DNA of 64,000 bases from Adhaeribacter radiodurans. Its GTDB lineage: Bacteria > Bacteroidota > Bacteroidia > Cytophagales > Hymenobacteraceae. The stretch spans positions 6,262,001 to 6,326,000 of the forward strand of contig NZ_CP055153.1 in the NCBI RefSeq assembly GCF_014075995.1. Reading direction: 5' to 3'. Shown piece by piece: positions 2,205-32,598 of this stretch. The stretch's first letter is position 1. Each line of letters starts with the position of its first letter. The notes under the pieces are model-generated. The model was not told the origin of the DNA, searched no databases, and saw only the letters and a list, made by a program, of their open reading frames with translations. A program made the translations under genes and the position numbers.

Positions 2205-5200
2205 ATGAAACTATCATTACTCTTTTTCTGCCTAAACTTTAAATTTTTTAATATCTGCAGGCAATGTCTACTTCTTATGTTGCTATTCTGGGCTACTTCT
2301 TTAATTAGAGTTTTTGCCCAAGACAAGATCTGGGATAATACTTTAGGGGGATACCAATCAGATGAGCTTAAAGCTATGGTAGTAACACCAGATAGGGGTT
2401 ACTTACTGGGTGGTACTTCCTGGACTGGGAAAAGCGGTGATAAAAGTACGAGCAGAAGAGGGGCCAATGATTATTGGGTACTAAAGACAGATAAAAACGG
2501 AATAAAGGAATGGGATAAAAGCTTTGGGGGAAGCGGCCAGGATGAATTACAGACCATGATAGCTACCCCGGATGGTGGCTTTTTGTTAGGTGGGTTCTCC
2601 TCTTCAGGTAAAAGCGGCGAGAAAAGTGAAGCAAACCGAGGAGGAAACAACGGAACTTATGACTACTGGGTGGTAAAAATTGGTGCCAATGGCACTAAAC
2701 AATGGGATAAAACCTTTGGCAGCAATGATTTTGATGAATTAAAAACTCTGGTAGCTACCCCGGACGGCGGTTACCTGCTAGGCGGTTCTTCGCAATCTGG
2801 CGGAATAAGTGGCGATAAGACCCAGGAGAATAAGGGTTGGATTGACTATTGGGTGATAAAAGTAGATGCAAAAGGAAACAAACTCTGGGATAAGACTTAC
2901 GGCGGCAACGATGAAGATAAATTATTATCCATGGTAACTACTCCTGATGGGGGATATTTACTGGGAGGGCATTCTACATCGGGCAAGAGTGGAGATAAAA
3001 GTGAAACAAACAGGGGTTTACTCCAAAGAGGGTTTTATGAAACTTCGGACTACTGGGTAGTAAAGGTAGATGCCAATGGAAATAAAATCTGGGATAAAAC
3101 CTTTGGGGGCAGCGAAGCCGATCACTTAACAACAATAGCACTTACAAAGGATGGGGGTTATTTGCTGGGGGGCAGCTCTTATTCTACCGCTAGTGGCGAC
3201 AAAACGGAAGTTAGCCGGGGTAGTGGTGATTATTGGCTCGTTAAAATAAATAGTAACGGTAAGAAGCTATGGGATAAAACCTTAGGTGGGAATGATTATG
3301 ATCAGCTTACGGCTATTGTTACTATTCCGGGTTATGGCTATCTGTTGGGAGGCTGGTCTTTCTCTGGTATAGCAGGCGATAAGTTAGAAGCCAATCGGGG
3401 CCGCGAAGGATATACAACGTATGATTATTGGATTATTAAAATAGATGAAAATGGCAATAGAAGTTGGGATAAAACCATTGGGGGGAATCTGAATGACGAA
3501 TTAGCGGCTTTAGCGGTTACCGATAAGGGTTACTTGCTCGCCGGAACTTCCAGTTCGGCTCAAAGTGGTGATAAAAGCGAACCCGAAAGAGTAAATGATT
3601 ACTGGATAGTAGAACTGCAGGAAAGCGGCAAAAACTGGCAGAGCATTACCTTTGAACCTGTCTTAAACAAAACATTAGATAATAAGCCTTTTCCGCTTTT
3701 CGTTTCTTCTAGTTCAAAACTACCGGTTACCTTAAGCGTGGTCTCCGGCCCGGCTATTCTTAAAAATAATATAATTACCCTCACTGGTACAGGCTTGGTT
3801 ACCATTAAAGCTTCGCAGGCCGGCGATGACCGCTATTTCCCGGCTCAGGATGTTTACCGTAGCTTTCTGGTTGAGAATGTATCAGCGTTTACCAAACTCT
3901 GGGACAAACGTTACGGGGGCAATTTTTATGATTACTTCGAAACCATTATCTCCACCCCGGAAGGCGGCTATTTACTGGGAGGAGATTCAGATTCGGAAAG
4001 GAGTAGCGATAAAAGCGAAGCTAGCCGGGGCCGCAACGATTACTGGATAGTAAAGACAGACAGTAAAGGCGTTAAACTTTGGGATAAACGCTTTGGCGGA
4101 AATGGCATTGAGAATTTAGGGGCTCTGGTGCCCACTCCAGATGGTGGTTATTTGCTGGGTGGTTTTTCCGATACTGGCAAAAATGGCGATAAAACCCAAC
4201 CGAATAAAGGTTATTTGGGATCTACTGATTACTGGATTATAAAGCTAGATTCTGATGGCAATAAAATTTGGGATAAGACCTTTGGTAGTAATTTCTCCGA
4301 ATTTCTTACTGTAATTATTCCTACAGCAGATGGCGGCTATTTATTAGGTGGTTATTCTAACTCGGATAATGGAGCTGACAAAACGGAAGCTAGTAGAGGG
4401 GAACGTTCGTTTGACTACTGGTTAGTAAAGATAGATGGCACTGGTACTAAACAATGGGATAAAACTTTTGGGGGTATTGGCGATGATAATTTAACTTCTA
4501 TTATTTCTACTCGCGATGGCGGTTATTTGGTGGGCGGCTTTTCAAACTCAGGGAAAGAGGGAGATAAGTCGGAAGCTAATAAAGGTCATTCAACGGCGGA
4601 CTTTTGGGTGGTTAAGATAGATGGCTCGGGCAACAAACAATGGGATAAAACCTTGGGTGGCACTGGAACCGACGAACTGAGTGGCCTGCTGGAGATCGCC
4701 AATGGAAGATTTTTGTTAAGTGGTTCTTCGGATTCAAAAATAAGTGGCGATAAAACGCAGAACAGTTATGGGGGCAAAGATTATTGGTTACTCCAGATGG
4801 ATGATAAAGGCAAGAAACTCTGGGATAAAACGTACGGGGGAAATAGCAGAGATAAATTAAATACTCTTGCCACTACCCTGGATGGTGGTTACTTACTCGG
4901 TGGGGAATCTAATTCTAAAATAAGTGGTGCTAAAAGCCAGATTAATCGAGGCGGTACGGATTATTGGGTAATCAAAATAAATAATAGCGGGGAGATACTC
5001 TGGGATAAAACTATTGGCGGTACTGGTAACGATGAGTTATTCTCTGTAATGGTAAATCCGGATGGCAGTTATTTATTAGGCGGAACTTCCAGGTCAGAGA
5101 TAGGAGGTGAGAAAAGTGAAGCTAGCAGAGGCTTCGCCGATTACTGGTTGGTGAAAACAAAAGAAGCCCAGCCCTTTACTGCTCAGTGGAATATGCGTTA

Positions 5201-6761
5201 CGGTGGTTCGGGTACGGATAATCTTACTTCCGTGACTAAAACTTCGGATGGAGGTTACTTAAGTGGGGGGTACACCAACTCCGGCGTGGGTGGAGACAAA
5301 AGCCAGCCGAGTCAGGGCAAATATGATTATTGGATTGTGAAAAGTGATAAAAATGGCAAAAAACTCTGGGACAAACGCTATGGCGGCAGCGAAGATGATT
5401 TTCTTAACCGCGTCTATCCCACCAGAGACGGCGGGTATTTACTCGGTGGTAGTTCGCTATCGGGAAATAGCGGCGATAAAACGGAAGCTAACCGGGGCAA
5501 TTGGGATTACTGGATTGTAAAAGTAGATAAACAGGGCAACAAAGAATGGGATAAAACTTTTGGCGGCAGTAGTTCCGATAACCTCCGGAAAGTGTTGCAA
5601 CTACCATCCGGCGAGTACGTGTTAGGTGGCAACAGCGGTTCTCCTAAAAGCGGGGATAAAAGCCAGGCTAGTTGGGGTAGTAGTGATTACTGGATTATAA
5701 AGCTCAGCAGCACCGGCGAAAAGCTCTGGGATAAACGCTATGGTGGCAACCTGGAAGAAAAACTAGGTAGCTTTAGCGACACACAAGGTGGGGGCTTTTT
5801 GCTGGCAGGTAGTTCTTACTCGGGCATCAGCGGCGATAAAAGTCAAGTAAGCCAGGGCAATAACGATTTCTGGCTGGTGCAAATTGATCAGGATGGAAAC
5901 TTACTCTGGGAAAAAACCTTGGGCGGCAATGGGCAGGAGGAGGTGTACACTTTAGGAAGAAGCAATGGTACTAACTTGTTTGTGGCGGGCACGAGTACCT
6001 CCGGTAAGAGTGGCGACAAGAGCCAGGCGAGTAGGGGTAAAAAAGACTACTGGCTAGTAAAGATAGATGCCAAGGGAACCAAACTCTGGGATAAAACGTA
6101 CGGCGGCAGCCAGGACGACGAATTACGCTTTAGTGAGTTTGCCACCGGTGGGCATTATATTCTGGCTGGGTACTCGTATTCAGGTATCGGCGGTGATAAA
6201 ACGCAAGCCAGCCAAGGCAGTAGTGATTATTGGATAGTAGAAGCAGATGAAAAAGGCGAAAAAATAGTGGATCAGCGATTTGGTGGTAGTGGCACCGAAG
6301 AACTAAGAACAATCTTTCAAACCAAAGACGGTGGGTTGCTCTTAGGTGGTCGCTCCGACTCGGGCGTGAGTGGCGATAGAACGCAGCCCAGCCAAGGAGG
6401 AATGGATTACTGGCTCGTGAAAGTAGCTCCGGTAAGCAGTCCGATTGTAGCAGCCAGAGAAGCCCTGCCAATGACCACTGAGCCAGTAAAGGAAGCCAAG
6501 CTAAACTTGTTAAAAGTGTACCCAAATCCATTCAGAGACAGAGTAACCGTGAGCTTTACTTTACCCCAAACGCAACCAGTTAGTGTGAAGGTGTACAATA
6601 ACCAAGGTAAAGAATTAACAACTTTGTTCCGGGGCGAAGCCAAAGCCGATCAAACGTATGAAGTAGAATGGCAAGCGAACAACCAAGCCGCTGGTTTGTA
6701 CTTTTTACAAATGCAAACCCCTACTACACCCCAGCAACAAAAACTGCTCTTAACGAGGTAA
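2205..6761 (+). CDS. Giant T9SS-sorted triple seven-repeat propeller protein (array gene 2)
   Basis: I chose the ATG at 2205 over the in-frame TTG at 2193 because it begins a normal signal peptide (MKLSLLFF, long hydrophobic run, cleavage near VFAQ). The product is 1518 aa. Approximate layout: seven repeats at 41-475, an Ig-like domain at 477-560 (SITFEP ... LPVTLSVVSGPAIL), seven repeats at 564-985, seven repeats at 990-1405, and a T9SS type A sorting domain at 1435-1518 (VYPNPFRDRVTVSFTLPQ, ending KLLLTR). The repeat is W-D-K-x-Y/F-G-G, about 8 aa, T-x-D-G-G-Y-L-L-G-G, S-G-D-K-S, D-Y-W-V-V-K, D-x-x-G. I see no cysteine outside the signal peptide. It has its own terminator and leader element. 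It is likely a secreted, surface-anchored beta-propeller protein; binding partner unknown. Confidence 0.88.
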   Translation: MKLSLLFFCLNFKFFNICRQCLLLMLLFWATSLIRVFAQDKIWDNTLGGYQSDELKAMVVTPDRGYLLGGTSWTGKSGDKSTSRRGANDYWVLKTDKNGIKEWDKSFGGSGQDELQTMIATPDGGFLLGGFSSSGKSGEKSEANRGGNNGTYDYWVVKIGANGTKQWDKTFGSNDFDELKTLVATPDGGYLLGGSSQSGGISGDKTQENKGWIDYWVIKVDAKGNKLWDKTYGGNDEDKLLSMVTTPDGGYLLGGHSTSGKSGDKSETNRGLLQRGFYETSDYWVVKVDANGNKIWDKTFGGSEADHLTTIALTKDGGYLLGGSSYSTASGDKTEVSRGSGDYWLVKINSNGKKLWDKTLGGNDYDQLTAIVTIPGYGYLLGGWSFSGIAGDKLEANRGREGYTTYDYWIIKIDENGNRSWDKTIGGNLNDELAALAVTDKGYLLAGTSSSAQSGDKSEPERVNDYWIVELQESGKNWQSITFEPVLNKTLDNKPFPLFVSSSSKLPVTLSVVSGPAILKNNIITLTGTGLVTIKASQAGDDRYFPAQDVYRSFLVENVSAFTKLWDKRYGGNFYDYFETIISTPEGGYLLGGDSDSERSSDKSEASRGRNDYWIVKTDSKGVKLWDKRFGGNGIENLGALVPTPDGGYLLGGFSDTGKNGDKTQPNKGYLGSTDYWIIKLDSDGNKIWDKTFGSNFSEFLTVIIPTADGGYLLGGYSNSDNGADKTEASRGERSFDYWLVKIDGTGTKQWDKTFGGIGDDNLTSIISTRDGGYLVGGFSNSGKEGDKSEANKGHSTADFWVVKIDGSGNKQWDKTLGGTGTDELSGLLEIANGRFLLSGSSDSKISGDKTQNSYGGKDYWLLQMDDKGKKLWDKTYGGNSRDKLNTLATTLDGGYLLGGESNSKISGAKSQINRGGTDYWVIKINNSGEILWDKTIGGTGNDELFSVMVNPDGSYLLGGTSRSEIGGEKSEASRGFADYWLVKTKEAQPFTAQWNMRYGGSGTDNLTSVTKTSDGGYLSGGYTNSGVGGDKSQPSQGKYDYWIVKSDKNGKKLWDKRYGGSEDDFLNRVYPTRDGGYLLGGSSLSGNSGDKTEANRGNWDYWIVKVDKQGNKEWDKTFGGSSSDNLRKVLQLPSGEYVLGGNSGSPKSGDKSQASWGSSDYWIIKLSSTGEKLWDKRYGGNLEEKLGSFSDTQGGGFLLAGSSYSGISGDKSQVSQGNNDFWLVQIDQDGNLLWEKTLGGNGQEEVYTLGRSNGTNLFVAGTSTSGKSGDKSQASRGKKDYWLVKIDAKGTKLWDKTYGGSQDDELRFSEFATGGHYILAGYSYSGIGGDKTQASQGSSDYWIVEADEKGEKIVDQRFGGSGTEELRTIFQTKDGGLLLGGRSDSGVSGDRTQPSQGGMDYWLVKVAPVSSPIVAAREALPMTTEPVKEAKLNLLKVYPNPFRDRVTVSFTLPQTQPVSVKVYNNQGKELTTLFRGEAKADQTYEVEWQANNQAAGLYFLQMQTPTTPQQQKLLLTR

Positions 6762-6778
6762 ATAAAGCAAAATTTACT

Positions 6779-6816
6779 AAAAGCCGGCTAGGATCTATCC
6801 TGCCCGGCTTTTTTTA
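6779..6816 (+). terminator. Hairpin terminator after array gene 2
   Basis: AAAGCCGG...ATCTATCC...CCGGCTTT is followed by a run of T. It belongs to the same stem family as the hairpins after array genes 1 and 3. Confidence 0.8.
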
Positions 6817-7243: not shown

Positions 7244-10200
7244 ATGAAAAAACCTTTATCTAATTTCAGCAGGGTTTCATTAACCCCGGTATTAGCGCCC
7301 AGGTGGCGTGGCTTCTCCGTTATATTGTTACTTCTTTTAACGCTTCCGGTTCTCACTTTTGCCCAAAATAAAATTTGGGATAAAACTATTGGCAGCAGCG
7401 ATTGGGATGTATTAAGTAGTATCCAACAAACCCAGGACGGGGGTTATATTCTCGGTGGCTACTCCGGTTCCAATATCAGTGAGGATAAATCTCAAAATAG
7501 TAGAGGCGGTGATGACTTTTGGGTAGTAAAATTAAATGCAAGTGGCGCTAAAGTTTGGGACAGAACCTTGGGTGGTACTTCCGATGATTTCTTAACTTCC
7601 ATACAGCAAACCAGCGACGGCGGCTATATTCTGGGCGGCAGATCACAGTCGGGTATAGGAGGCAATAAATCACAAGCTAGTAAAGGCGAATGGGATTATT
7701 GGGTAGTAAAATTAGCCGCTAATGGTACCAAAGCCTGGGATAAAACTTTAGGCGGCAGCGGAAACGACTATTTGTATTCAGTGCGTCAAACCAGCGATGG
7801 CGGTTATATTTTAGGAGGTTGGTCAGACTCGGGTATTGGTGGCAATAAAACCCAGGCCAATAAAGGCGAATCGGACTACTGGGTTGTAAAATTAAATGCT
7901 AATGGTAGCCAGCTTTGGGATAAAACTTTTGGTGGTAACCAGGCCGATGAATTAGCGGCCTTGGAGCAGACCAATGATGGTGGCTATATTCTGGGTGGTT
8001 TTTCTTCTTCTGGTATAAGTGGCGATAAATCGCAAAATTCCCGAGGCTTTAAAGATTACTGGGTTATCAAAATTTCCGCTAATGGTAATAAATCCTGGGA
8101 TAGAACCTATGGTGGTGCTTCCGATGATAATTTAACTTCTTTGCACCAAACCAACGATGGCGGCTATATTCTAGGGGGATCTTCTTACTCCGAAATAAGC
8201 GGTGAAAAATCTCAAGCCAATAAAGGAGATACAGATTATTGGGTAATAAAAATAGGTGCTAATGGTACGAAAGCTTGGGATAAAACCTACGGCGGAAACC
8301 AAGCCGATGATTTAGCAGCTTTGCAGCAAACCTCAGATGGGGGCTATGTTCTGGGCGGTACTTCCCGTTCAGGTCTTAGCGGCGATAAATCCCAGACAAG
8401 TAAAGGTATAGAAGATTTTTGGGTAGTTAAACTGAAAGCCAATGGCAGTAAATTCTGGGAAAGAACCCTTGGTGGATCTCCCAATCCTAATCCTTTAGCT
8501 TCTCTGCAACAAACCAGCGATGGTAATTACATTCTGGGTGGTTCTTCTATTAATGATGCTTCCGGCGATAAATCCGAAGATTCTAAAGGCTCTAATGATT
8601 ATTGGATCGTAAAACTGGATAACAGTAATACCAATATTAGCCAAACCATCAATTTCAAACCTATTCCTTATAAAAGTTTAGGCGATGCGCCATTTGCTCT
8701 ATCTGCCACCGCCACTTCCGGGTTGCCTGTCTCTTTTAGTGTAGTATCTGGCCCGGCAACTATAAACAACAATATGGTTACGGTAACAGGTTTAGGCGAA
8801 GTAACCATTAAAGCTTATCAGGCCGGGAATGCAAATTATCTACCCGCCGAAGCCACCCGTACTTTTTTAGTTCGCAACGATATTCAAAAACCCTGGGATA
8901 AAACCTTTGGGGGTACTAATCTGGACAAGCTTACTGCTATGGTGGCTACGGAGGATGGCGGCTATTTGCTAGGAGGTTCTTCATTATCCGGCATCAGCGG
9001 CAATAAAACTCAGGCCAACAGAGGAAGAGAAGACTACTGGTTGGTAAAAACCGATAAACAAGGCAAAAAACTTTGGGACAATTCTTACGGCGGCAAAGGA
9101 GTCGATAATCTTACTTCTATTTTAGCTACTCCCGATGGGGGATATTTACTGGGCGGTTCTTCAGCTTCGGGTATTTCTGGAGATAGAAGTCAGGTAAACC
9201 GGGGAGGAACCGATTATTGGGTTGTAAAAATAGATAGCGAAGGAAACAAGCTTTGGGATAAAGCTTACGGCGGCAATATGGCCGATAATTTAACCGTGTT
9301 GCTGGCTACTGCCGATGGAAATTATTTGTTGGGTGGCGCCTCGACCTCGGGTGTTACCGGCGATAAAAGCCAGGCCAGTAAAGGCGATACCGACTATTGG
9401 GTAATAAAAATAAACGAAGACGGTGACAAGCTTTGGGATAGATCTTACGGTGGCAATAAAGCAGACGAGTTAGCGGCTATTGTCGCTTCAGATAATGGCG
9501 GTTATTTACTGGGTGGTTCTTCGGCTTCGGGCATTAGCGGCAATAAGAGCCAAACCGCCCGTGCCAAAAAAGATTACTGGGTAGTACGTATTCAGGAAAA
9601 CGGCGCTAAAATCTGGGATAAAACTTTTGGCGGTTCTCTGGATGCTTTTGAGCAAGGCGGCTGCGACCCCTCCACCGGAGAAGATTGCAATTTCTACTTC
9701 GGGGAATCTATTCTATCGTCTCTAGTAGCTACTCCGGATGGTGGCTTTTTGCTGGGCGGCTCTTCCAACGCCAATCAAGGTGCTGAGAAAAGTGAAGATA
9801 ACCTGGGCGGCGACGAATATTCTTACTTTATAAAAAGCTATTGGGTAGTAATGATAGATCAGGATGGCCAAAAAGTATGGGATAAAACTTATCAGGGCAT
9901 CTCAGATGCCCCATCCGATGGCCAGGGCTGGTTCTTTGTAACCGGAAATTCTATCCTGAACAAGATTGTTCCAATGGCTGATGGGGATTATTTACTGGCG
10001 GGTACTTCTAATGGCAGTAAAGGAGCTAGCAAAAGTGAAGATCCCCGGTTTGAAGATCCGGAATCGCCGGCACGGGATGATTATTGGGTAATAAAAATAG
10101 ACGGAGAAGGTACTAAAAAGTGGGACCGTGTTGTAGGAGGTTTCAGCAATGACTTTTTAGCAGATATTGTTCCGGCAGGTGAGGGCGAATATGTGTTGGG

Positions 10201-11911
10201 TGGTTCTTCGGCTTCGGGCATAGGCGCAGATAAGAGTCAAGCAAACTGGGACCCGAGCGGCAATTATTATCAAAGATCTGACTACTGGATCGTAAAAATA
10301 AAAGTAGAAGAACAACCGCTTTCGGCTCAATGGAATAATCGTTACGGCGGTGCGGGTAACGATGCCTTTACGGTAGTTATTAAAACCGCTGATGGCGGAT
10401 ACCTGTCAGGTGGCTATACCAATTCCGGCATAAGTGGCGATAAAAGCCAAAGCAGCCGCGGCCTGAATGATTACTGGATTGTGAAATCTAATGCTGCAGG
10501 GAAAAAGCTCTGGGACAAACGTTTTGGTGGTACCGGTGATGATTATCTGAACACCATTATTCAAACTTCTGATGGCGGCTTTTTACTCGGGGGTAGCTCG
10601 CTTTCGGAAGTGAGTGGCGATAAAACGCAAGCCAGCCGCGGTAACCGCGATTTCTGGATCGTGAAAATTAGTAGCACGGGCATTAAGCAATGGGATAAAC
10701 GCTACGGCGGCAGTGGCTATGATGAACTCAAGAAAGTACTCCAACTCTCAAACGACGAATACGTGCTGGCAGGCTTGAGCAACTCCCCGGTAAGCGGCGA
10801 TAAAACCCAGGCTAGCCGGGGCGGACAAGACTTCTGGGTGGTAAAAATCTCGGGTAACGGTACTAAGATTTGGGATAAACGTTACGGCGGTTCCTTAAAC
10901 GAGAACCTGGAAGGTTTAGCCTTAACCCTGGACGGCGGGTATTTACTGGGCGGCAGTTCGTACTCGGGTATTAGCGGCGACAAAACGCAGAACAGCCGGG
11001 GCGGCAGCGATTATTGGGTAATCCGGGTAAATAGCGCGGGCACAAAGGTGTGGGACAAACGTTTTGGCGGAAGTGGCGAAGACAACCTAATGGACTTGGG
11101 TAGTACGGGCACGAACACGGGTAACTTCTTTATTGCCGGGCACAGTACCTCCGGCGCCGAAGGAGATCGCAGCCAAAATAGCCAGGGTGGCAAAGATTTC
11201 TGGATGCTTAAAATAAACGCTAGTGGCGACAAATTATTCGATAAGCGCTTTGGCGGCAGCAGTGATGAAGGGCTGCGCACAATCTTGCTGACCAGTGATG
11301 GCGGCTACTTACTGGCGGGCCGTTCCGAGTCGGACCAAAGTGGGGATAAGACTCAAGGCAACCAGGGTTCGAGTGATTACTGGATCGTAAAAACTACCAG
11401 CACCGGCGAAATGCTCTGGGACAAACGCTTTGGTGGCAATGGCTACGACGAAATCCGGACGGCGGCCCAAACGGAAGATGGTGGTTTTATCTTGGGAGGA
11501 AGGTCAGATTCCGACGCGAGTGGCGATAGAACGCAGCCCAGCCAGGGTGGGTACGATTACTGGTTAGTGAAAGTAGCTCCGCAAAACAGCCCAATAATAG
11601 CTGAAAGACAAGTTGCTCCGGTAGTACCCGCTACGGTGCAGGAGGCTACACTTGACCTGCTGAAAGCGTATCCTAATCCTTTCCGGGAAAAAGTAAAAGT
11701 AAACTTTACTTTACCGCAAACGCAACCAGCCAGTGTAAAGGTGTACGACAATCAAGGTAGAGAAATAACTACCTTGTTCCAGGGCGAAGCCAAAGCTGAT
11801 CAGAAGTATGAAGTAGAATGGCAAGCCAGTAATAAAGCAGCCGGAATGTACTTCTTACAACTGCAAACTCCTACTACTCGTCAGCAACAAAAAATACTCC
11901 TGACGAAGTAA
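7244..11911 (+). CDS. Giant T9SS-sorted triple seven-repeat propeller protein (array gene 3)
   Basis: The ATG at 7244 starts a signal peptide (MKKPLSNF ... LPVLTFAQ); the product is 1555 aa. Layout: seven repeats at 41-463, an Ig-like domain at 464-547 (LGDAPFALSATATSGLPVSF), seven repeats at 547-1020, seven repeats at 1025-1442, and a T9SS type A domain at 1470-1555 (AYPNPFREKVKVNFTLPQ ... KILLTK). Blades 5 and 6 of the middle block carry insertions. Blade 5 holds the only cysteine pair I found (GGCDPSTGEDCNF). The insert is shared in position with array gene 4, so these two are close relatives. It is inferred to be an exported surface protein. No catalytic motif is visible. Confidence 0.88.
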   Translation: MKKPLSNFSRVSLTPVLAPRWRGFSVILLLLLTLPVLTFAQNKIWDKTIGSSDWDVLSSIQQTQDGGYILGGYSGSNISEDKSQNSRGGDDFWVVKLNASGAKVWDRTLGGTSDDFLTSIQQTSDGGYILGGRSQSGIGGNKSQASKGEWDYWVVKLAANGTKAWDKTLGGSGNDYLYSVRQTSDGGYILGGWSDSGIGGNKTQANKGESDYWVVKLNANGSQLWDKTFGGNQADELAALEQTNDGGYILGGFSSSGISGDKSQNSRGFKDYWVIKISANGNKSWDRTYGGASDDNLTSLHQTNDGGYILGGSSYSEISGEKSQANKGDTDYWVIKIGANGTKAWDKTYGGNQADDLAALQQTSDGGYVLGGTSRSGLSGDKSQTSKGIEDFWVVKLKANGSKFWERTLGGSPNPNPLASLQQTSDGNYILGGSSINDASGDKSEDSKGSNDYWIVKLDNSNTNISQTINFKPIPYKSLGDAPFALSATATSGLPVSFSVVSGPATINNNMVTVTGLGEVTIKAYQAGNANYLPAEATRTFLVRNDIQKPWDKTFGGTNLDKLTAMVATEDGGYLLGGSSLSGISGNKTQANRGREDYWLVKTDKQGKKLWDNSYGGKGVDNLTSILATPDGGYLLGGSSASGISGDRSQVNRGGTDYWVVKIDSEGNKLWDKAYGGNMADNLTVLLATADGNYLLGGASTSGVTGDKSQASKGDTDYWVIKINEDGDKLWDRSYGGNKADELAAIVASDNGGYLLGGSSASGISGNKSQTARAKKDYWVVRIQENGAKIWDKTFGGSLDAFEQGGCDPSTGEDCNFYFGESILSSLVATPDGGFLLGGSSNANQGAEKSEDNLGGDEYSYFIKSYWVVMIDQDGQKVWDKTYQGISDAPSDGQGWFFVTGNSILNKIVPMADGDYLLAGTSNGSKGASKSEDPRFEDPESPARDDYWVIKIDGEGTKKWDRVVGGFSNDFLADIVPAGEGEYVLGGSSASGIGADKSQANWDPSGNYYQRSDYWIVKIKVEEQPLSAQWNNRYGGAGNDAFTVVIKTADGGYLSGGYTNSGISGDKSQSSRGLNDYWIVKSNAAGKKLWDKRFGGTGDDYLNTIIQTSDGGFLLGGSSLSEVSGDKTQASRGNRDFWIVKISSTGIKQWDKRYGGSGYDELKKVLQLSNDEYVLAGLSNSPVSGDKTQASRGGQDFWVVKISGNGTKIWDKRYGGSLNENLEGLALTLDGGYLLGGSSYSGISGDKTQNSRGGSDYWVIRVNSAGTKVWDKRFGGSGEDNLMDLGSTGTNTGNFFIAGHSTSGAEGDRSQNSQGGKDFWMLKINASGDKLFDKRFGGSSDEGLRTILLTSDGGYLLAGRSESDQSGDKTQGNQGSSDYWIVKTTSTGEMLWDKRFGGNGYDEIRTAAQTEDGGFILGGRSDSDASGDRTQPSQGGYDYWLVKVAPQNSPIIAERQVAPVVPATVQEATLDLLKAYPNPFREKVKVNFTLPQTQPASVKVYDNQGREITTLFQGEAKADQKYEVEWQASNKAAGMYFLQLQTPTTRQQQKILLTK

Positions 11912-12885: not shown

Positions 12886-12926
12886 AATCAAAAGTTTAAT
12901 TAGTCGGCGAAATGTACTTATCTAAA

Positions 12927-13427: not shown

Positions 13428-13495
13428 AAGGTCTGCTTGCCATCTTTTAACCAAAACGCATTTTGTACTTCTTCTTTAATATAACCAATTCTTTT

Positions 13496-22993: not shown

Positions 22994-22998
22994 ACCCC

Positions 22999-23266: not shown

Positions 23267-26200
23267 ATGAAAATACTTATAAATCTTTCCTTAAAGGTTC
23301 AATTAACCCGGACATTAGCGTTCCACAAGCGCAGCATCTGGCTAATCTTTTTACTACACCTAAGCCTCCCACTAGTAAGTTTCGCTCAAATCAAGACTTG
23401 GGATAAAACCTTCGGCGGTAATTCTTATGATTTTCTTACTTCTGTAGTAAATACTTCGGATGGTGGTTATTTACTAGGCGGTACTTCCAATTCTAATAAG
23501 AGCGGGGACAAGAGTGAAACTGGCCGGGGGCCAAAAGGTAACCGATACCAGGATTATTGGATAGTAAAAACTGACAATAAAGGTAAAAAAATGTGGGAGA
23601 AAACCTTTGGCGGAGAAAATTATGATTTTCTTAAGGCAGTAGTAGCTACACCGGATGGGGGCTATCTGTTAGGTGGTTTTTCTTCCTCGGGTAAGAGTGA
23701 GGATAAATCGGAAGCAAACAAGAGTAAAGAGTCGTATTATTCTGATTACTGGTTGGTAAAGATAGATGCCAATGGTAAAAAGGAATGGGATAAAACCTAT
23801 GGTGGGGATGGCGATGATGAACTCTACGCGATGGTAGCGGCACCAGATGGAGGGTATTTATTGGCAGGTCCGTCCGGATCAGATAAAAGTGATGATAAAT
23901 CAGAAGATAATAAAGGAGGTAAAGATCAACATGGGAATATCTCCTCCGATTACTGGATAGTAAAGATAAAAGCAGATGGTACAAAAGTCTGGGACAAAAC
24001 TATAGGCGGCAAACTTGATGACCGCTTAACCTCTTTGTTAGTCACAGCAGATAAAGGGTATTTACTCAGTGGTTATTCTATTTCCGAAAAGAGTGGGGAT
24101 AAGAGTGAAAATAAGCTGGGCAACTGGGTGGTTAAGCTGGATGTTGAAGGCAAAAAAATATGGGATAAGACTTTTAGCTACGGCGGCGACGTATCTGATT
24201 GGGCGTACAATAAGGTGAGTGCCTTGCTAAACACCCCAGATGGCGGCTACCTGGTCGGTACTAATGCTCCCTCAGGTAAGAAAGAAGACAAGAGTACGTC
24301 TTATGCCGGGTATTGGATAATAAAAATAGATTCCCAAGGAAAAAAGCAGTGGGATAAAACTTATGGGGGCAGTTTCAGAGATGAATTTAGAACCATGATT
24401 ACTTCTCCGGATGGGGGATACTTATTAAGCGGTATTTCTAACCGGAAAAAAGCAGGGGATAAGAGCGATGACAAAAAAGGGTATTGGATAGTGAAGATAA
24501 AGGAAAACGGTACCAAAGAATGGGACAGAACTTATGGCAGCGTTAATAATCATAATTTAGGTGAAGAACCCTCACTGAAGGCACTGGTACCTACCAGCGA
24601 TGGCGGCTTTCTAGTTGGGGGAAATTCCAGTTTAGGTGTCGACGGAGATAAGACGGAAGAGAGCCGGGGAGAATATGACTACTGGGTGGTGAAAATAGCC
24701 CTTACCAAGAAGAAAGAACAAATTATTACCTTCCCTACTCCCCTAATCACCAAAACCTTAGGAGATGCGCCTATTACCCTTTCGGCCAAAACTAGCTCAG
24801 GGTTGCCAGTTACCTTTAGCCTGGTATCCGGACCAGGCACCCTCAAAGGCAAAATCCTTGCGTTTACAAATCTAGGCACTATTAAGGTAAAAGCCTCGCA
24901 GGCGGGTAACGCGACGTATGCCGCTGCCACGGATGTTTTCCAAACCATTATTGTGGATGTACCCACTCCGGTTACCAAAGTCTGGGATAGAACTATAGCA
25001 GGAGAGTTTAACGACCTAATGGTAGCTACCCCAGATGGAGGATTTATAATGGGCAATTCCTCTAGGCTAACCAAGATAAATAAAGAAGGAACCAAAATAC
25101 AAGACATAAACATCACTTTTGATTTTTGGCTTGGAAGCCTATTAATAACTTCGGATGGGGGATACCTGTTAGGTGGAACTCCTCCTTTTGGGGTTGGAGC
25201 CGGTTATTCAATAGTTAAACTAAATAGCAATGGTACCACCGAATGGGAGAAGGATTTTAAAAGTGATTGGTCTACTACTGTCTTTAGCACCATGGTGCCT
25301 ACCCAGGATGGTGGCTATTTATTAGGCGGTTATAGTGAATCTGGTATTTACGGCGATAAAAGTGAACCGAGCCGAGGTAGTAGCGACTATTGGATTATAA
25401 AAATTGATAGTAAGGGCAATAAGATTTGGGATAAAACCCTAGGTGGGAATGAATGGGATAATCTTACTGCTATGTTAGCTACCCCAGATGGAGGTTTTGT
25501 ACTCGGAGGTTCTTCCAATTCAGATAAGAGTAATGATAAAAGTGAAACTTACCGGGGAGATTTTGGGGAAAACCAGGCTGTTCCTTCGGACTACTGGATA
25601 GTAAAAATAGATGCTGCAGGTAATAAGCAATGGGATAAAACTTATGGTGGAAATAATAGAGATGACCTTTCGGTAATAGTGGCTTCTCCGAATGGAGGGT
25701 ATTTATTAGGAGGCACTTCTTATTCGGATAAGAGTAGTGATAAGAGTGAATCCAGCCGGGATTCTCCTAACTCTTACAAAGGTGACTATTGGGTAATTAA
25801 AATAGATGCCATTGGTAAAAAGCTTTGGGATAAAACCATAGGCGGCAATCAAGAGGATTACCTAAGAGCTATAGTGCCTACTGAAGATGGAAATTATTTA
25901 CTCGGAGGTTCTTCTACCTCGGGCGTGGGGGAAGATAAAAGTGGGCAATATCGGGGAGGGAACTCGTTTGGCCAGGATGGTGATTATTGGATAGTAAAGG
26001 TAGATAATACCGGTAAGAAAATGTGGGATGAGAACTTTGGTACCAGCAGAAGGGATGATTTCACGGCTTTACAGGTCAGTACTGATGGAAGTTATTTGCT
26101 AAGTGGTACTTCCAACGCCGGCATTGATGGGGACAAAACAGAATTCTCCCGGGATCCAGATTCTATGCAGGGCATGAACCAAGATTATTGGCTGATAAAG

Positions 26201-27799
26201 ATAAAAGAAGATCTGTCCTTAACGGCGCAATGGGATCTGCGCTACGGTGGTTCTGGCAACGAAGGCTTTACTACTATAATTAAAACGAGTGATGGTGGAT
26301 ACTTAAGTGGAGGTTATTCCGCTTCAGGAGTAAGTGGCGATAGAACTCAAGCGAGCCAGGGTAAGAACGACTACTGGATAGTAAAATCAGATGCAAACGG
26401 CAAGAAGCTATGGGACAAACGCTATGGAGGTTCTGCAGATGACTACTTGAACCGGATCATTCAGACAAAAGATGGTGGTTATTTACTGGCGGGTAGTTCC
26501 TTATCGGGAAAAGGTGGCGATAAAAGTGAAGCAAGCAGAGGAGGCAGGGATTATTGGATCGACAAGCTAGATAAGCAAGGAAAGAAAGAGTGGGACAAGA
26601 GCTATGGCGGCAGTGGCTACGATGAACTCAAAAAAGTACTCCAACTCTCTACTGGAGAATACCTGTTAGCCGGTTACAGCAACTCCCCCGTGAGTGGGGA
26701 GAAAACACAGGCGAGTCAGGGTGAGAATGATTACTGGTTAGTCAAGGTGAGTTCTACCGGAGAGAAGCTGTGGGATAAACGCTATGGCGGTAATTTAGAA
26801 GAAGAGTTAGCAGGGATCGTGCAAACAGCGGAAGGTGGTTTCTTGTTAGGGGGTAGTTCCTGGTCTGATAAAAGCGGCAACAAAACAGGAGCTAGTAGAG
26901 GTAAGAGTGATTTCTGGCTAGTAGCCGTAGATAAAGAAGGTAAGCAACTCTGGGATAGAACTTACGGAGGAAAAGGTGAGGACCAAGCGTACTCATTAGG
27001 CAAAGCCGGTAATACTTACTTTCTAGCCGGGCAAAGTGATTCTCCAGCCGGATGGGATAAGACAAGAGATAGTCAGGGAGGCTTAGACTACTGGCTCTTA
27101 AAAGTAAGTAGCACGGGAGAAAAGGTGTGGGATAAGCGGTATGGTGGCAGTAAAGATGATGAGCTGCGTGCCAGTATTCCTACTCAGGATAGCGGGTACT
27201 TATTAGCCGGAAAGTCTTTCTCCAACCAGAGTGGCAACAAACGGCAAGATAGCCAGGGTTTAAGTGACTATTGGATGGTGAAAGCCGATAAAGATGGGCA
27301 ATATGAGTGGAGCAAAACCTTTGGCGGCAGCGGTGCGGAAGAACTAAGAGCCGTGATTCAGACCAGCGAAGGCGGGTACTTGTTAGGCGGTAAGTCCTAC
27401 TCAGGAGTAAGTGGCGATAGAACGCAACCGAGCCAAGGTGGATATGATTACTGGCTGGTGAAAGTAGCTCCGGAAGCTAAATCTATTGTAGCTGAAAGAG
27501 AAGCTACCCTGGTAGAAGAAATTCCATTGCCAATGGAACAATTCAGTTTAAAAGCTTATCCAAATCCGTCCTCTGGAAAGTTTACGGTAAGCTTTACTCT
27601 ACCGCAAACCCAGAATGCTAGCTTAAAAGTATACGACAATCAAGGAAGAGAAATCACTACTTTGTTCCAGGGTGAAGCAAAAGCTAATCAGAAGTATGAG
27701 GTAGAATGGCAGGCAAACAACAAAGCGGCTGGATTATTTTTCTTGCAACTGCAAAACCCTACTCTCCGGTGGCACCAGAAATTGCTAATAGCCAAGTAA
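23267..27799 (+). CDS. Giant T9SS-sorted triple seven-repeat propeller protein (array gene 6)
   Basis: The ATG at 23267 opens MKILINLSLK ... LPLVSFAQ; the product is 1510 aa. Layout: seven repeats at 43-480, an Ig-like domain at 482-566 (LGDAPITLSAKTSSGLPVTF), seven repeats at 566-980, seven repeats at 986-1400, and a T9SS type A domain at 1425-1510 (AYPNPSSGKFTVSFTLPQ ... KLLIAK). The first three blades of the middle block are badly decayed (WDRTIAGEFNDL, IQDINITFDFWL, WEKDFKSDW), but seven units can still be counted. The leader and first codons resemble gene 7, and 86 bp of the C-terminal region are identical to gene 7, so the two are recent duplicates or exchange sequence. Confidence 0.88.
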   Translation: MKILINLSLKVQLTRTLAFHKRSIWLIFLLHLSLPLVSFAQIKTWDKTFGGNSYDFLTSVVNTSDGGYLLGGTSNSNKSGDKSETGRGPKGNRYQDYWIVKTDNKGKKMWEKTFGGENYDFLKAVVATPDGGYLLGGFSSSGKSEDKSEANKSKESYYSDYWLVKIDANGKKEWDKTYGGDGDDELYAMVAAPDGGYLLAGPSGSDKSDDKSEDNKGGKDQHGNISSDYWIVKIKADGTKVWDKTIGGKLDDRLTSLLVTADKGYLLSGYSISEKSGDKSENKLGNWVVKLDVEGKKIWDKTFSYGGDVSDWAYNKVSALLNTPDGGYLVGTNAPSGKKEDKSTSYAGYWIIKIDSQGKKQWDKTYGGSFRDEFRTMITSPDGGYLLSGISNRKKAGDKSDDKKGYWIVKIKENGTKEWDRTYGSVNNHNLGEEPSLKALVPTSDGGFLVGGNSSLGVDGDKTEESRGEYDYWVVKIALTKKKEQIITFPTPLITKTLGDAPITLSAKTSSGLPVTFSLVSGPGTLKGKILAFTNLGTIKVKASQAGNATYAAATDVFQTIIVDVPTPVTKVWDRTIAGEFNDLMVATPDGGFIMGNSSRLTKINKEGTKIQDINITFDFWLGSLLITSDGGYLLGGTPPFGVGAGYSIVKLNSNGTTEWEKDFKSDWSTTVFSTMVPTQDGGYLLGGYSESGIYGDKSEPSRGSSDYWIIKIDSKGNKIWDKTLGGNEWDNLTAMLATPDGGFVLGGSSNSDKSNDKSETYRGDFGENQAVPSDYWIVKIDAAGNKQWDKTYGGNNRDDLSVIVASPNGGYLLGGTSYSDKSSDKSESSRDSPNSYKGDYWVIKIDAIGKKLWDKTIGGNQEDYLRAIVPTEDGNYLLGGSSTSGVGEDKSGQYRGGNSFGQDGDYWIVKVDNTGKKMWDENFGTSRRDDFTALQVSTDGSYLLSGTSNAGIDGDKTEFSRDPDSMQGMNQDYWLIKIKEDLSLTAQWDLRYGGSGNEGFTTIIKTSDGGYLSGGYSASGVSGDRTQASQGKNDYWIVKSDANGKKLWDKRYGGSADDYLNRIIQTKDGGYLLAGSSLSGKGGDKSEASRGGRDYWIDKLDKQGKKEWDKSYGGSGYDELKKVLQLSTGEYLLAGYSNSPVSGEKTQASQGENDYWLVKVSSTGEKLWDKRYGGNLEEELAGIVQTAEGGFLLGGSSWSDKSGNKTGASRGKSDFWLVAVDKEGKQLWDRTYGGKGEDQAYSLGKAGNTYFLAGQSDSPAGWDKTRDSQGGLDYWLLKVSSTGEKVWDKRYGGSKDDELRASIPTQDSGYLLAGKSFSNQSGNKRQDSQGLSDYWMVKADKDGQYEWSKTFGGSGAEELRAVIQTSEGGYLLGGKSYSGVSGDRTQPSQGGYDYWLVKVAPEAKSIVAEREATLVEEIPLPMEQFSLKAYPNPSSGKFTVSFTLPQTQNASLKVYDNQGREITTLFQGEAKANQKYEVEWQANNKAAGLFFLQLQNPTLRWHQKLLIAK

Positions 27800-27862: not shown

Positions 27863-28041
27863 AACAATTGCTTTGGCAGCTAGTGTCTACTAATTGATTT
27901 CAGCGAAGATTATTTATTCTTGCTTCCCCTTGTTTTCGCAAAAAGTATGGTTTGCAGTTCTTCTAAATTATAAGAACATCTTCATGAAATTTTTAATAAA
28001 CTCATTCTTAAAGGTGTAGAAAATAAATAAGTAGCTCCGTA

Positions 28042-28076
28042 TATTTACTAACCTCCCTACTTGGCTAGCAGACCTA
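28042..28076 (+). promoter_or_regulatory. Conserved leader element upstream of array gene 7
   Basis: It starts TATTTACTAACCTCCCTACT and continues TGGCTAGCAGACCT. It begins 123 nt before the ATG and aligns without gaps to the gene 6 copy. Confidence 0.5.
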
Positions 28077-28164
28077 AGCTTATCTACTGGTAGATTTTTT
28101 TAAAGTAAAGCCTGACTTGTTTTGTAAACGCAATGCTCACTTTCTAATCTTAATCTCAAAACCA

Positions 28165-31100
28165 ATGAAAATACTTTTATATTTTTTCTTGTCTCAATTG
28201 AGCCAGCTATTCAACTGGTGCAATCCCTGCTTAATCTTATTTCTATCTCTTGGTTTCAAGACTATAATTTTCGCTCAAAACAAAGAATGGGATAAAACTA
28301 TCGGGGGTAGCAGCGATGATAAACTTTCAGCAATGATAGCCACTCCAGACGGAGGCTATATTCTGGGGGGCTTCTCCTATTCTAACAAGTCGGGTGATAA
28401 AACGCAAGGTAATAAAGGAGATTGTTATGGCTCTGGATGTTATACCAGTGATTTTTGGGTGGTAAAACTAAGTCCGGATGGTACGAAAGAATGGGACAAA
28501 ACCTTTGGTGGAGAACAGGATGATAAACTTAGGGCCATTATACCCGCCCCCGATGGCGGATATTTATTAGGTGGTTCTTCCGATTCGCCGGCTAGTGGCG
28601 ATAAAAGCGAGAGTAGTAAGGAAGTCCCGAATCAGGTTCGATATTATTCATCAGATTATTGGCTCGTAAAGATAGATGATAACGGGAAAAAAGTCTGGGA
28701 CAAAACCTTTGGTGGAGATGCGTACGAGGAACTTACCTCTTTAGCAACTACTCCCGACGGCGGTTTTTTAATAGGTGGCTTTTCCAATTCCGGGAAAGGG
28801 TATGATAAAAGCCAAACTAGTAAAGGAGCGGAAGATTACTGGATTATAAAAATAGATAGCCAAGGAAAGAAAATTTGGGATAAAAGCTTGGGTGGTGATA
28901 GCTATGATTATCTTACTTCCTTATTAAAAACCCCAGATGGCGGTTATTTACTAGGTGGTTTTTCCGCCTCAGGTAAGAGAGGAAACAAGAGTGAAGCCAG
29001 CCGGGATGGGCAAGATATTAATAATCGAGGAGATTATTGGGTAGTAAAAATTGATGCACAAGGGGAGAAAGTCTGGGATAAAACTTTAGGTGGGGATAGA
29101 AAGGATGAGCCTTACTCTCTGCTACGAACACCGGACGGGGGGTATTTAGTAGGGGGCTACTCGAACTCAAACCGAAGTGTGGATAAAAGCAAATCGGCAT
29201 ACGGGTACTGGGTAGTAAAACTTAAAGCTACCGGCGAGAAAGTTTGGGAAAAGGTATATGGAACTACTTATAATTATCCGCTCCAGAGCATGGTCGCTGC
29301 TTCGGATGGAGGCTACGTATTGGGTGGCAGCAACTATTACGTTGTCAAGATAAAAGAGGATGGCACCAAAGTGTGGGATAAAACTTTTGGCAGAGAAGTA
29401 CAGTTTAATGCCGATATTTTCTCTAGCCTGGTAGCTACGCCGGATAGAGGTTACCTGCTCGGCGGTTATTCTCGTTCGGACAAAGGGGGTTATAAAAGCC
29501 AAGATAGTAAAGGAGATTCTGATTATTGGCTAATAAAGATTAAGGACACAAATAAAATAACCCAAACCATTACCATCACTACTCCGCTTATTCTTAAGCA
29601 AGTAGGGGATGCGCCTTTTACCTTAACCGCCAAGGCTAGTTCCGGGTTGCCCGTTACCTTTAACGTGGTGTCCGGTCCGGCCACTCTAAAAGGCAATGTA
29701 CTCTCGCTTATCGGAGCCGGAAAGATTATAATTAAAATCTCGCAAGCGGGTAATAATGATTATAAGCCTGCAGCGGATGTTACCCAAACCATTATTGTGG
29801 ATAATCTTAGTCCGGTTACCAAGCTATGGGATAAAACCTTCGGTGGAATTTATAGTGATCGCCTTTCCACGCTATTACCTGCTTCAGATGGTGGTTATTT
29901 ATTGGGCGGAATTTCCCGAAAATCGCTGCAGAATGACCCGGGATTCTCCATCACTAAAATAGATAATAACGGAAAGAAGGAGTGGGAAAAAGACCTGGGT
30001 GGGGATAATGATACCCGATTAATTAAAGGGATAGTCGCTGCGGATGGGGGATATTTGTTCGGTGGTTCTTCTAATACTGCCTTTTTCTTAGAAGATACTA
30101 AGTTCTACATTGTTAAAACCAGCTCAGATGGCACCAAAGAATGGAGTAAAACTTTCTGGGGACCGGGTAATCTTAATAGCTTAATTGCTACGCCGGATGG
30201 GGGTTATTTGCTGGGGGGCAACACGTATGAATATAAAAAGGATGATAAGACCGAGGCGCCCCGGGGAAGTAGTGATTATTGGGTAGTAAAAATAGATGCA
30301 AACGGTAAAAAGCTCTGGGACAAAACTCTGGGAGGCAGTAAGGAAGATTATCTCACGTCCTTAATAGTAACTCAAGACAGGGCATACTTGATAGTGGGAT
30401 ATTCTGATTCTGAAAAATCAGGCGATAAAACCGAAGCCCAAAAGGGTACTTGGTTGGTGAAATTAAATACTGATGGAACTAAGGCTTGGGATAAAGTTAT
30501 AAGTGGCGGTAGTATTTCATCGTTGCAACAAACTAGCGATAACGGAATTATTTTAAGTGGTACTACATCGTCCAAAATGGATGATAGATCCGACACAGAT
30601 TACTGGTTGGTAAAATTACAGGCTAATGGCAGCCAAGAATGGGAGAAAACTTTAGGTGGCCCAGGTAACGATAGATTAATTGAAATAACAGCTACTCCGG
30701 ATGGCGGATATGTGTTGGGTGGCACTTCTACTTCGAAAATTGGATCAGATAAAAGTGAGGAGTCTCGGGGCGGTGAATTATATGGCGACTATTGGGTAGT
30801 AAAGGTAAATGCCACAGGCGTAAAAGTTTGGGATAAGACTTTAGGCGGTTATGATGAGGATTTTTTAGCAACTCTGTTGGTTACTCAAGATGGTAATTAT
30901 TTACTCGCGGGCACCTCTTACTCGGAAGCGAATGGCGATAAGAGCGAACCTAGCTTTGATAGAAGTTTGAGTCAAAGAGGAGATTACTGGATTGTAAAAA
31001 TAAAAGAAGACCTACCACTTACGGCCCAATGGAATATGCGTTATGGTGGCTCTAGGAACGAAGGTTTTACTTCGATTATCAAGACCAATGATGGCGGTTA

Positions 31101-32598
31101 CTTAAGTGGAGGTTATTCGGCTTCGGGAGTAAACGGCGATAGAAGCCAAGCTAGCCAAGGTAAAAACGATTATTGGATTGTAAAATCAGATCAGAATGGT
31201 AAGAAGTTGTGGGACAAAAGCTATGGTGGCAGTGGTGATGATTATCTGAACCGCATCATTCAAACGAAAGATGGTGGCTATTTACTAGCGGGTAGTTCCT
31301 TATCGGGCAAGAGTGGCGACAAGACTGAGGCGAGTAGAGGGGGCAGAGATTATTGGATTATAAAGGTTGATAAAGCCGGTGCGAAAGAGTGGGATAAGAA
31401 TTATGGCGGCAGTGGCTACGATGAACTCAAAAAAGTATTGCAACTAAGTACTGGAGAGTACCTATTGGCGGGGTACAGCAGCTCGCCGGTGAGCGGAGAT
31501 AAAACGCAAGCTAATCAGGGTGGGACTGATTACTGGTTAGTGAAAGTAAGTAGTTCGGGAGAGAAGCTCTGGGACAAAAGGTATGGTGGCAAAGAAGTAG
31601 AAGAGCTAAGTGGCATTGTACTAACAGCAGAGGGCGGGTTCTTGTTAGGGGGTAGTTCCTGGTCAGGTAAGAGTGGCAATAAGAGTGAGGAGAGTAGAGG
31701 TAAGAGTGACTTCTGGTTAGTAGCCGTAGATAAAGCAGGTAAACAACTCTGGGATAAAACCTACGGCGGCACAGGAGAGGATGAAGCCTACTCATTAGGA
31801 AAAGCGGGTAGTACGTACTTTCTAGCCGGGCAGAGTGATTCACCAGCAGGATTGGATAAGACGAGAGACAGTCAGGGAGGCTTAGACTACTGGCTCTTGA
31901 AAGTAAGTAGCACGGGAGAGAAGGTGTGGGACAAGCGCTATGGGGGCAGTAAAGACGATGAGCTACGAGCCAGTATTCCTACTCAGGATGGGGGGTATTT
32001 GCTAGCAGGCAAGTCTTTCTCCAACAAGAGTGGCAACAAACGGCAAGATAACCAGGGTTTAAGTGACTATTGGATGGTGAAAGCAGATAAAGATGGGCAA
32101 TATGAGTGGAGCAAAACCTTTGGTGGCAGCGGTGCGGAAGAACTAAGAGCCGTAATTCAGACCCAGGAAGGAGGCTTCTTATTAGGCGGAAAGTCTGATT
32201 CAGGAGTAAGTGGCGATAGAACGCAGCCGAGTCAAGGAGGCACTGATTACTGGCTGGTGAAGGTTGCTCCGGAAAGTACTTCTATTCAAGCTGAAAGAGA
32301 AGCTACCGTGGTAGAAGAAATTCCATTGCCAATGGAACAATTCAGTTTAAAAGCTTATCCAAATCCGTCCTCTGGAAAGTTTACGGTAAGCTTTTCTTTT
32401 CCCAAAAACCAAACCGCTACAGTAAAGATTTTTGACAACCAGGGTAATTATATAACTACATTGTTTCAGGGAGAAGCGCAGGCAGATCAAAGTTACCAGG
32501 TAGAATGGCAAGCTGCTAATAAGTTAGTAGGTTTATATTTCTTGCAACTGCAAACCCCTACTACTCGTCAGCAGCAGAAATTGCTTTTGACAAAGTGA
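28165..32598 (+). CDS. Giant T9SS-sorted triple seven-repeat propeller protein (array gene 7)
   Basis: The ATG at 28165 (MKILLYFFLSQLS ... KTIIFAQ) is preferred over the TTG at 28117. Its upstream bases also match those before the gene 6 ATG. The product is 1477 aa. Layout: seven repeats at 42-460, an Ig-like domain at 463-550 (VGDAPFTLTAKASSGLPVTF), seven repeats at 550-948, seven repeats at 952-1368, and a T9SS type A domain at 1393-1477 (AYPNPSSGKFTVSFSFPK ... KLLLTK). First-block blade 1 has a cysteine-pair loop (GDCYGSGCYTSDFW). Middle blades 3 and 5 are shortened. Probably a secreted surface protein; partner unknown. Confidence 0.88.
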   Translation: MKILLYFFLSQLSQLFNWCNPCLILFLSLGFKTIIFAQNKEWDKTIGGSSDDKLSAMIATPDGGYILGGFSYSNKSGDKTQGNKGDCYGSGCYTSDFWVVKLSPDGTKEWDKTFGGEQDDKLRAIIPAPDGGYLLGGSSDSPASGDKSESSKEVPNQVRYYSSDYWLVKIDDNGKKVWDKTFGGDAYEELTSLATTPDGGFLIGGFSNSGKGYDKSQTSKGAEDYWIIKIDSQGKKIWDKSLGGDSYDYLTSLLKTPDGGYLLGGFSASGKRGNKSEASRDGQDINNRGDYWVVKIDAQGEKVWDKTLGGDRKDEPYSLLRTPDGGYLVGGYSNSNRSVDKSKSAYGYWVVKLKATGEKVWEKVYGTTYNYPLQSMVAASDGGYVLGGSNYYVVKIKEDGTKVWDKTFGREVQFNADIFSSLVATPDRGYLLGGYSRSDKGGYKSQDSKGDSDYWLIKIKDTNKITQTITITTPLILKQVGDAPFTLTAKASSGLPVTFNVVSGPATLKGNVLSLIGAGKIIIKISQAGNNDYKPAADVTQTIIVDNLSPVTKLWDKTFGGIYSDRLSTLLPASDGGYLLGGISRKSLQNDPGFSITKIDNNGKKEWEKDLGGDNDTRLIKGIVAADGGYLFGGSSNTAFFLEDTKFYIVKTSSDGTKEWSKTFWGPGNLNSLIATPDGGYLLGGNTYEYKKDDKTEAPRGSSDYWVVKIDANGKKLWDKTLGGSKEDYLTSLIVTQDRAYLIVGYSDSEKSGDKTEAQKGTWLVKLNTDGTKAWDKVISGGSISSLQQTSDNGIILSGTTSSKMDDRSDTDYWLVKLQANGSQEWEKTLGGPGNDRLIEITATPDGGYVLGGTSTSKIGSDKSEESRGGELYGDYWVVKVNATGVKVWDKTLGGYDEDFLATLLVTQDGNYLLAGTSYSEANGDKSEPSFDRSLSQRGDYWIVKIKEDLPLTAQWNMRYGGSRNEGFTSIIKTNDGGYLSGGYSASGVNGDRSQASQGKNDYWIVKSDQNGKKLWDKSYGGSGDDYLNRIIQTKDGGYLLAGSSLSGKSGDKTEASRGGRDYWIIKVDKAGAKEWDKNYGGSGYDELKKVLQLSTGEYLLAGYSSSPVSGDKTQANQGGTDYWLVKVSSSGEKLWDKRYGGKEVEELSGIVLTAEGGFLLGGSSWSGKSGNKSEESRGKSDFWLVAVDKAGKQLWDKTYGGTGEDEAYSLGKAGSTYFLAGQSDSPAGLDKTRDSQGGLDYWLLKVSSTGEKVWDKRYGGSKDDELRASIPTQDGGYLLAGKSFSNKSGNKRQDNQGLSDYWMVKADKDGQYEWSKTFGGSGAEELRAVIQTQEGGFLLGGKSDSGVSGDRTQPSQGGTDYWLVKVAPESTSIQAEREATVVEEIPLPMEQFSLKAYPNPSSGKFTVSFSFPKNQTATVKIFDNQGNYITTLFQGEAQADQSYQVEWQAANKLVGLYFLQLQTPTTRQQQKLLLTK

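Follow-up and report, generated by a model that had tools for sequence, protein, structure and literature searches.

The recurrent turn of a propeller family in Adhaeribacter radiodurans: probably a strand C-D hairpin of CylK-like blades rather than an Asp-box or a calcium loop

The stretch of DNA analysed here, called the window, comprises 64,000 nucleotides of Adhaeribacter radiodurans (contig NZ_CP055153.1, positions 6,262,001 to 6,326,000). A repeat of about 60 amino acids is encoded by six complete genes on the plus strand and by the 3' part of a seventh; it contains a conserved turn, which is followed by W-D. This turn is very probably the beta-hairpin between strands C and D (the third and the fourth) of the blade of a CylK-like seven-bladed propeller, and neither an Asp-box nor a calcium loop nor a glycan site. 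In short, it is an ordinary motif of CylK-like propellers. The proposed metal site thereby moves away from a turn that merely resembles a binding loop and into the one in which a solved relative holds calcium. This relocation is a concrete correction and can be tested directly.

The third propeller of one of the proteins (window 31018-32280) was modelled with AlphaFold2 from 55 sequences (model 1). The result is a seven-bladed beta-propeller with 28 strands, a predicted local distance difference test score (pLDDT) of 96.9 and a predicted template modelling score (pTM) of 0.93, and it bears out the fold that a preliminary description of this DNA had suspected. Along the chain strand D comes first, and the remaining three strands of the same blade come last. 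In all six internal C-D hairpins the turn appears as a five-residue gap in the DSSP assignment, and its tryptophan lies inside strand D as the third residue. The turn D-Q-N-G-K-K-L-W-D (31189..31215, plus strand; model residues 58-66) may serve as an example: its loop (58-62) connects strand C (50-57) with strand D (63-69), and W65 belongs to the latter. A second model, which covers the window from 7361 to 10324 and was built from six sequences only, displays 28 strands, a small beta domain and again 28 strands (pLDDT 76.3, pTM 0.51). The five-residue gap recurs there in all twelve internal C-D hairpins. We regard the turn as part of the fold itself, situated on the bottom face of the wheel. 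An aspartate, asparagine or serine in its first position would cap the five-residue turn by hydrogen bonds, the glycine would occupy the tight-turn position, and the tryptophan, extending from strand D, would pack into the blade or into the interface between blades.

CylK (PDB 7RON, 7ROO, 7FH6-7FH8) is the best structure match by sequence, with expectation values (E) of 2e-27 for sequence and 4e-33 for profile comparison. It is also the best match by fold: for model 1 the E value is 5e-25 and the TM-score 0.84, while the first non-CylK match follows at 3e-8, and the best fold matches of model 2 are CylK entries again. Judged by sequence and by predicted fold, the window proteins contain CylK-like seven-bladed propellers. 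Both share the seven blades, the C-D turn (in CylK, for example, DSNGNQRW, DSDGNQVW and DKDGNQLW) and an acid at the same place of the loop that joins the blades. The architectures differ. In CylK an N-terminal calcium-binding domain, which supplies the active-site residue Arg105, is fused to a single propeller (PMC8916777, passages only). The window proteins, in contrast, have three consecutive propellers, only about 40-50 residues preceding the first, and a C-terminal sorting tail of the type IX secretion system (T9SS). Their blades also have an additional G-D-K-S segment in the B-C loop. A blade profile was built from the window proteins and searched against 20 stretches of the genome plus the first 40 kb of the window. 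At profile positions 49-53 the segment reads G-D-K-S/T-Q/E, with lysine or arginine in 98% of 706 blades and aspartate, asparagine or glutamate in 97% of 712. By eye, it is mostly missing in CylK.

How strictly is the turn conserved? The count covers the 107 C-D turns without gaps in the six full proteins; six turns with insertions, five of which are the link between propellers 2 and 3, were set aside. The glycine is kept in 105 of the 107 turns, the tryptophan in 102 and the aspartate after it in 94. The first position is less uniform, with aspartate in 56 turns, asparagine in 20, serine in 12 and lysine in 11, and asparagine or aspartate precedes the glycine in 50. The repeat exceeds chance by far: the six proteins contain D..G...WD 46 times, as compared to a mean of 0.26 and a maximum of 3 in 200 shuffles. 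The preliminary description had seen D-x-x/N-G-x-x-x-W-D almost everywhere, in 21 copies per protein. The repeat is real, and a full protein indeed has about 21 blades, but the motif is looser than first stated. D-x-x-G-x-x-x-W-D is found in 46 of the 107 turns and D-x-[ND]-G-x-x-x-W-D in 16, and precisely the portion that resembles a calcium loop is the least conserved one. Full blades found in the same genome (712 with this position) start the turn with aspartate in 45%, asparagine in 22%, lysine in 13% and serine in 10%. Among 55 aligned propellers from the window and from other genomes (330 turns) the figures are 61% for aspartate, 20% for asparagine and 11% for serine. This preference for D, N or S looks like a capping pattern.

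The loop that joins the blades is a better place to search for a metal. CylK is reported to be a seven-bladed propeller with blade-bridging Ca2+ in the blade-connecting loops, a similar site being present at each junction; the passages available from that paper describe no calcium site at the turn (PMC8916777). In the window family this loop reads G-G-x-x-x-[DE], its acid being placed ten residues after the tryptophan (W+10). Of the 109 such sites in the six window proteins, 99 have aspartate or glutamate at W+10. The share is 95% among 709 blades of the same genome and 94% across the 384 sites that the 55 aligned propellers provide, and all seven blade-joining loops of CylK have the acid as well, as read by eye from alignments. 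An example is D75 of model 1 (31240..31242, plus strand), located at the passage from strand D to strand A of the following blade. Since the acid is kept in this loop and CylK is reported to have its calcium there, many calcium sites appear plausible, though away from the turn. The W+10 residue is a likely ligand if the proteins bind calcium as CylK does. The early idea of metal binding at many sites thus fails at the turn, where asparagine, serine or lysine replaces aspartate, and persists in a changed form for the blade-joining loop, which has its acid in about 95% of the blades. A limited literature search on blade-bridging calcium in propellers yielded only the CylK paper.

Several observations weigh against the account given so far. 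The ligand role of the W+10 acid is inferred, and the passages at hand do not name the ligand residues of CylK (PMC8916777). The acid could instead pair with the 98% conserved lysine or arginine of the G-D-K-S segment. The hydrogen bonds of the turn and the direction of its tryptophan are likewise putative, and aspartate still is the commonest first residue of the turn (61% across species). Model 2 is weak (pTM 0.51), and nine of its 13 low-confidence segments fall into propeller 2. An Asp-box loop is published as typically eight residues including the aromatic, whereas our turn is a five-residue DSSP gap with the tryptophan in the strand, a contrast drawn without an Asp-box structure as control in the same strand assignment. 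Finally, the assignments of ligand and function are putative.

The most serious of the competing explanations takes the W+10 acid as purely structural, i.e., as part of a salt bridge or as a turn cap, with no calcium bound. We consider this quite possible, if on balance doubtful. The highly conserved basic residue of the B-C loop is a possible partner for such a bridge. CylK, however, keeps the acid although its K/R segment is mostly absent (again by eye), and it is described as having calcium at each junction (PMC8916777).

The tryptophan-docking turn of the pyrroloquinoline quinone (PQQ) type has the consensus A-x-D-x-x-T-G-K-x-x-W. That the window turn shares a common descent with it is unlikely, despite some likeness. 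The spacing of +4 from glycine to tryptophan agrees, G.K.W is found 86 times in the six proteins versus 3.0 expected by shuffling, and each motif places a conserved aromatic at the start of strand 4. In solved PQQ proteins this aromatic makes blade-to-blade contacts, namely to the succeeding blade (PMC2716378, in part). Nothing but the glycine-to-tryptophan spacing agrees, however, when the whole motif is demanded: the six proteins contain no match to the consensus, and the distance from aspartate to glycine is off by one. Also, no PQQ repeat family is listed for the window proteins, and PQQ_2 matched only one of the 55 aligned propellers (E 0.00039).

It is very improbable that the turn of every blade forms a calcium loop of the D-x-N-G, EF-hand or dockerin type. 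It is true that aspartate is commonest seven residues before the tryptophan (56/107) and that asparagine or aspartate often stands five residues before it (50/107). Yet D-x-[DN] is realized in only 22 of the 107 turns, 14 have lysine or glutamine instead of aspartate, and across species an acid occupies position -5 in only 14% of 330. The pattern D.[DNS].[DNS]G turns up once in the six proteins, where 5.9 occurrences are expected by shuffling; the acidic and amide side chains do not keep the fixed register of an EF-hand or dockerin-type loop. Moreover, the turn is shared by CylK, whose reported calcium lies in the blade-joining loops (PMC8916777). As far as the sequence tells, the turn is a poor metal site because its aspartate is often replaced by asparagine, serine or lysine.

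The Asp-box, to which the turn had been likened at first, is defined by the consensus x-x-S/t-x-D/n-x-G-x-T/s-W/f/y-x and typically forms an 8:8 hairpin, with an eight-residue loop including the aromatic, between blade strands 3 and 4 (PMC2716378). The position was seen correctly: Asp-box (BNR) propellers and the window proteins have in common the hairpin between strands 3 and 4 and an aromatic in strand 4, with D and G nearby. Beyond position the resemblance does not hold. The consensus is matched nowhere in the six proteins, where shuffling predicts 3.1 matches, nor in the partial seventh. Its core, D/N.G..W/F/Y, is found 5 times versus 17.8 expected, and its short form, S/T.D/N...W/F/Y, 8 times versus 21.8. 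In the Asp-box the glycine precedes the tryptophan by three residues and the aspartate precedes the glycine by two; in the window turn these distances are four and three. Pfam BNR (PF02012) is missing from the listed families of the window proteins and from the first 25 of the 65 listed for the 55 aligned propellers; a genome-wide search for BNR was empty too, which is a weak test, since 14 control genomes were equally silent and the model has only 12 positions. With spacing, loop length (five unassigned residues, not eight) and motif counts all at odds with it, a true Asp-box, be it drifted or short, in an Asp-box propeller is the least credible explanation. The glycan binding that had been considered for the turn is without support as well. 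The role of the Asp-box is described as structural, its conserved aspartate and tryptophan are almost unavailable to ligands, and the cited passages call ligand binding highly unlikely even for real Asp-boxes (PMC2716378).

The C-D hairpin of CylK-like blades thus remains our preferred reading of the turn, and the family to which it belongs deserves a closer look. Among the Pfam listings, no repeat family fits its blades with a convincing score. For the seven propeller 3 blocks no Pfam family is listed with an E value better than 0.001; the best match, to the EMC1 propeller family, concerns one of the seven (E 0.0013). Weak matches to Pfam SBBP and DUF5122 are seen in two and three, respectively, of the 55 aligned propellers. 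Closer is the SBBP or LipL53-type propeller (NF047494), which matches all 55 at E values up to 1, the best being 5.5e-26. The six full window proteins, however, score 108-134 bits against this model, far below its equivalog cut-off of 400 bits, and they were not taken as LipL53 equivalogs. The Delta-60 repeat TIGR02608 (Pfam DUF5122) is matched by 31 of the 55 propellers; two of the six window proteins reach about 6e-8 and a third 0.4, but the best score, 32.4 bits, stays below the cut-off of 76.5. A limited literature search yielded no paper on this repeat, and one on tandem propeller paralogues with T9SS export yielded a single paper, on a different subject. Some further hits were taken as chance matches. 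DUF5597 scored 27.3 bits in one protein, above its cut-off of 23, yet no single stretch passes; PqqD, DAO, GBD_ATRN, Flg_new_2, FlgD_ig, TrpBP and WD40 remained below their cut-offs and presumably respond to the repeats. A second solved set, PDB 8PRA-8PRS ("Cell surface protein", nvBagel4), is weakly similar in sequence (best E 1.6e-4); a limited literature search found no paper on these chains.

The blade profile reveals that the window is only part of a much larger family. No fewer than 55 reading frames contain at least two blades; together they amount to 207,000 bases or 3.0% of the 6.94 Mb genome. The number of 55 is a lower bound, as the genome search gave 271 matches, some of them outside the stretches covered. 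Many of the frames lie in tandem clusters, near 1.27-1.30, 1.75, 3.04-3.07, 4.08-4.13 and 6.21-6.29 Mb. In this family, which fills about 3% of the genome, blades are counted in sevens. With only those profile matches scored as blades that cover one invariant strand B position, 21 blades are counted in 23 frames, 14 in ten and 7 in seven; hence 40 of the 55 have a multiple of seven. The other 15 are made up of six halves of three genes that are each split by a single in-frame stop (1749929-1753531, 3041286-3045983 and 3046226-3050968), two shorter neighbouring pieces (1754060-1756216 and 1756432-1758579), six frames that are one blade short and one that is two blades short. A cruder count of all matches in frames longer than 700 residues gives 21 in 18 frames, 14 in ten, 22 in seven, 7 in six and other numbers in ten; counts above 21 can be explained by profile matches that are split by insertions. 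A simple sorting-tail pattern is present in 46 of the 55 frames.

The family is not confined to this organism. With propeller 3 plus the tail as query, matches were obtained in 37 of 39 genomes, the window's own included. They fall below an E value of 1e-200 in three of the seven other members of the genus (G003, G005 and G006). No match of this quality was seen in G001, G002, G004 and G007, the last genome being only 78% complete. The named propeller relatives are mostly Bacteroidota (Pontibacter, Rufibacter, Sabulibacter, Emticicia and others); a few archaeal and other records are among the 78 loci kept of 94 found.

The three propellers of a protein do not vary alike. For the 18 frames that gave 21 profile matches, spacing was measured from the end of one match to the start of the next, where the B-C loop ends. 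In propellers 1 and 2 the paralogues show values from 0 to 21 residues, and propeller 3 keeps to 2-4 residues in all but three of 108 cases. In the genes starting at 13463, 23267 and 28117, propeller 3 is 88-89% identical at the protein level and propellers 1 and 2 are 43-53% identical; compared with the other window genes, propeller 3 of this subgroup is 53-64% identical. Fourfold sites in the same three genes are 49-55% identical in propeller 3 and 25-34% in propellers 1 and 2, and the former value speaks against a recent gene conversion of propeller 3. The high protein identity at such fourfold identity points to long purifying selection on propeller 3 within this subgroup, perhaps after an old exchange, which fits better than a recent one. 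That propeller 3 varies little, while the outer loops of propellers 1 and 2 are variable in length, suggests that the first two do the binding and that the third, with the tail, carries or anchors them. Taken together, one could imagine a modular, calcium-stiffened recognition family that this member of the Bacteroidota displays. It would comprise some 50 secreted proteins of three propellers, two or one, the blades of each wheel would be held together by up to seven calcium ions, and propellers 1 and 2, their outer loops diversified for recognition, would sit on a third that hardly varies. This picture is speculative and less likely than not.

As to the window itself, each full protein consists of three seven-bladed propellers and a T9SS tail. 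The tail scores 39.6-44.5 bits against PF18962 (cut-off 27) in the Pfam search and 31.3-43.5 bits against TIGR04183 (cut-off 23) in the NCBIfam search, each in six of six full proteins. With a C-terminal sorting domain above the curated cut-offs the proteins are predicted T9SS type A cargo and, therefore, probably secreted or held at the surface. The small domain between propellers 1 and 2 was labelled Ig-like by eye; no family search named this linker above cut-off.

All propeller genes of the array are on the plus strand. The 3' part of the seventh (1..1833) encodes propeller 3 (259-1506) and the C-terminal tail. The first full gene (2193..6761, an open reading frame (ORF) of 1522 amino acids) comprises propeller 1 (about 2319-3617), the linker domain (about 3618-3887), propeller 2 (about 3888-5162), propeller 3 (5181-6431) and Por_Secre_tail (6516-6746). 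The next one (7244..11911, 1555 amino acids) has propeller 1 at about 7361-8623, the linker domain at about 8624-8887, propeller 2 at about 8888-10303 and propeller 3 at 10325-11581, followed by the T9SS tail. The same architecture is seen in 13463..18163 (ORF of 1566 amino acids; propeller 3 at 16589-17836), 18371..22993 (1540 amino acids; 21407-22663), 23267..27799 (1510 amino acids; 26225-27472) and 28117..32598 (ORF of 1493 amino acids), the last with propeller 1 at about 28270-29550, propeller 2 at about 29815-31005 and propeller 3 at 31024-32271. The range from 2329 to 32274 had been described as repeats; it does hold the six genes, but it also includes a gene on the minus strand that is not a repeat. 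This is a LuxR-type (GerE) regulator (12109-12891), with a PAS match below cut-off, which stands alone inside the array. On the downstream side (36530-46472) a POT-family transporter (36530-38026), a GH18 glycoside hydrolase (38005-39300), a PhoX phosphatase (42759-44168) and a GH20 glycoside hydrolase (44361-46472) are encoded.

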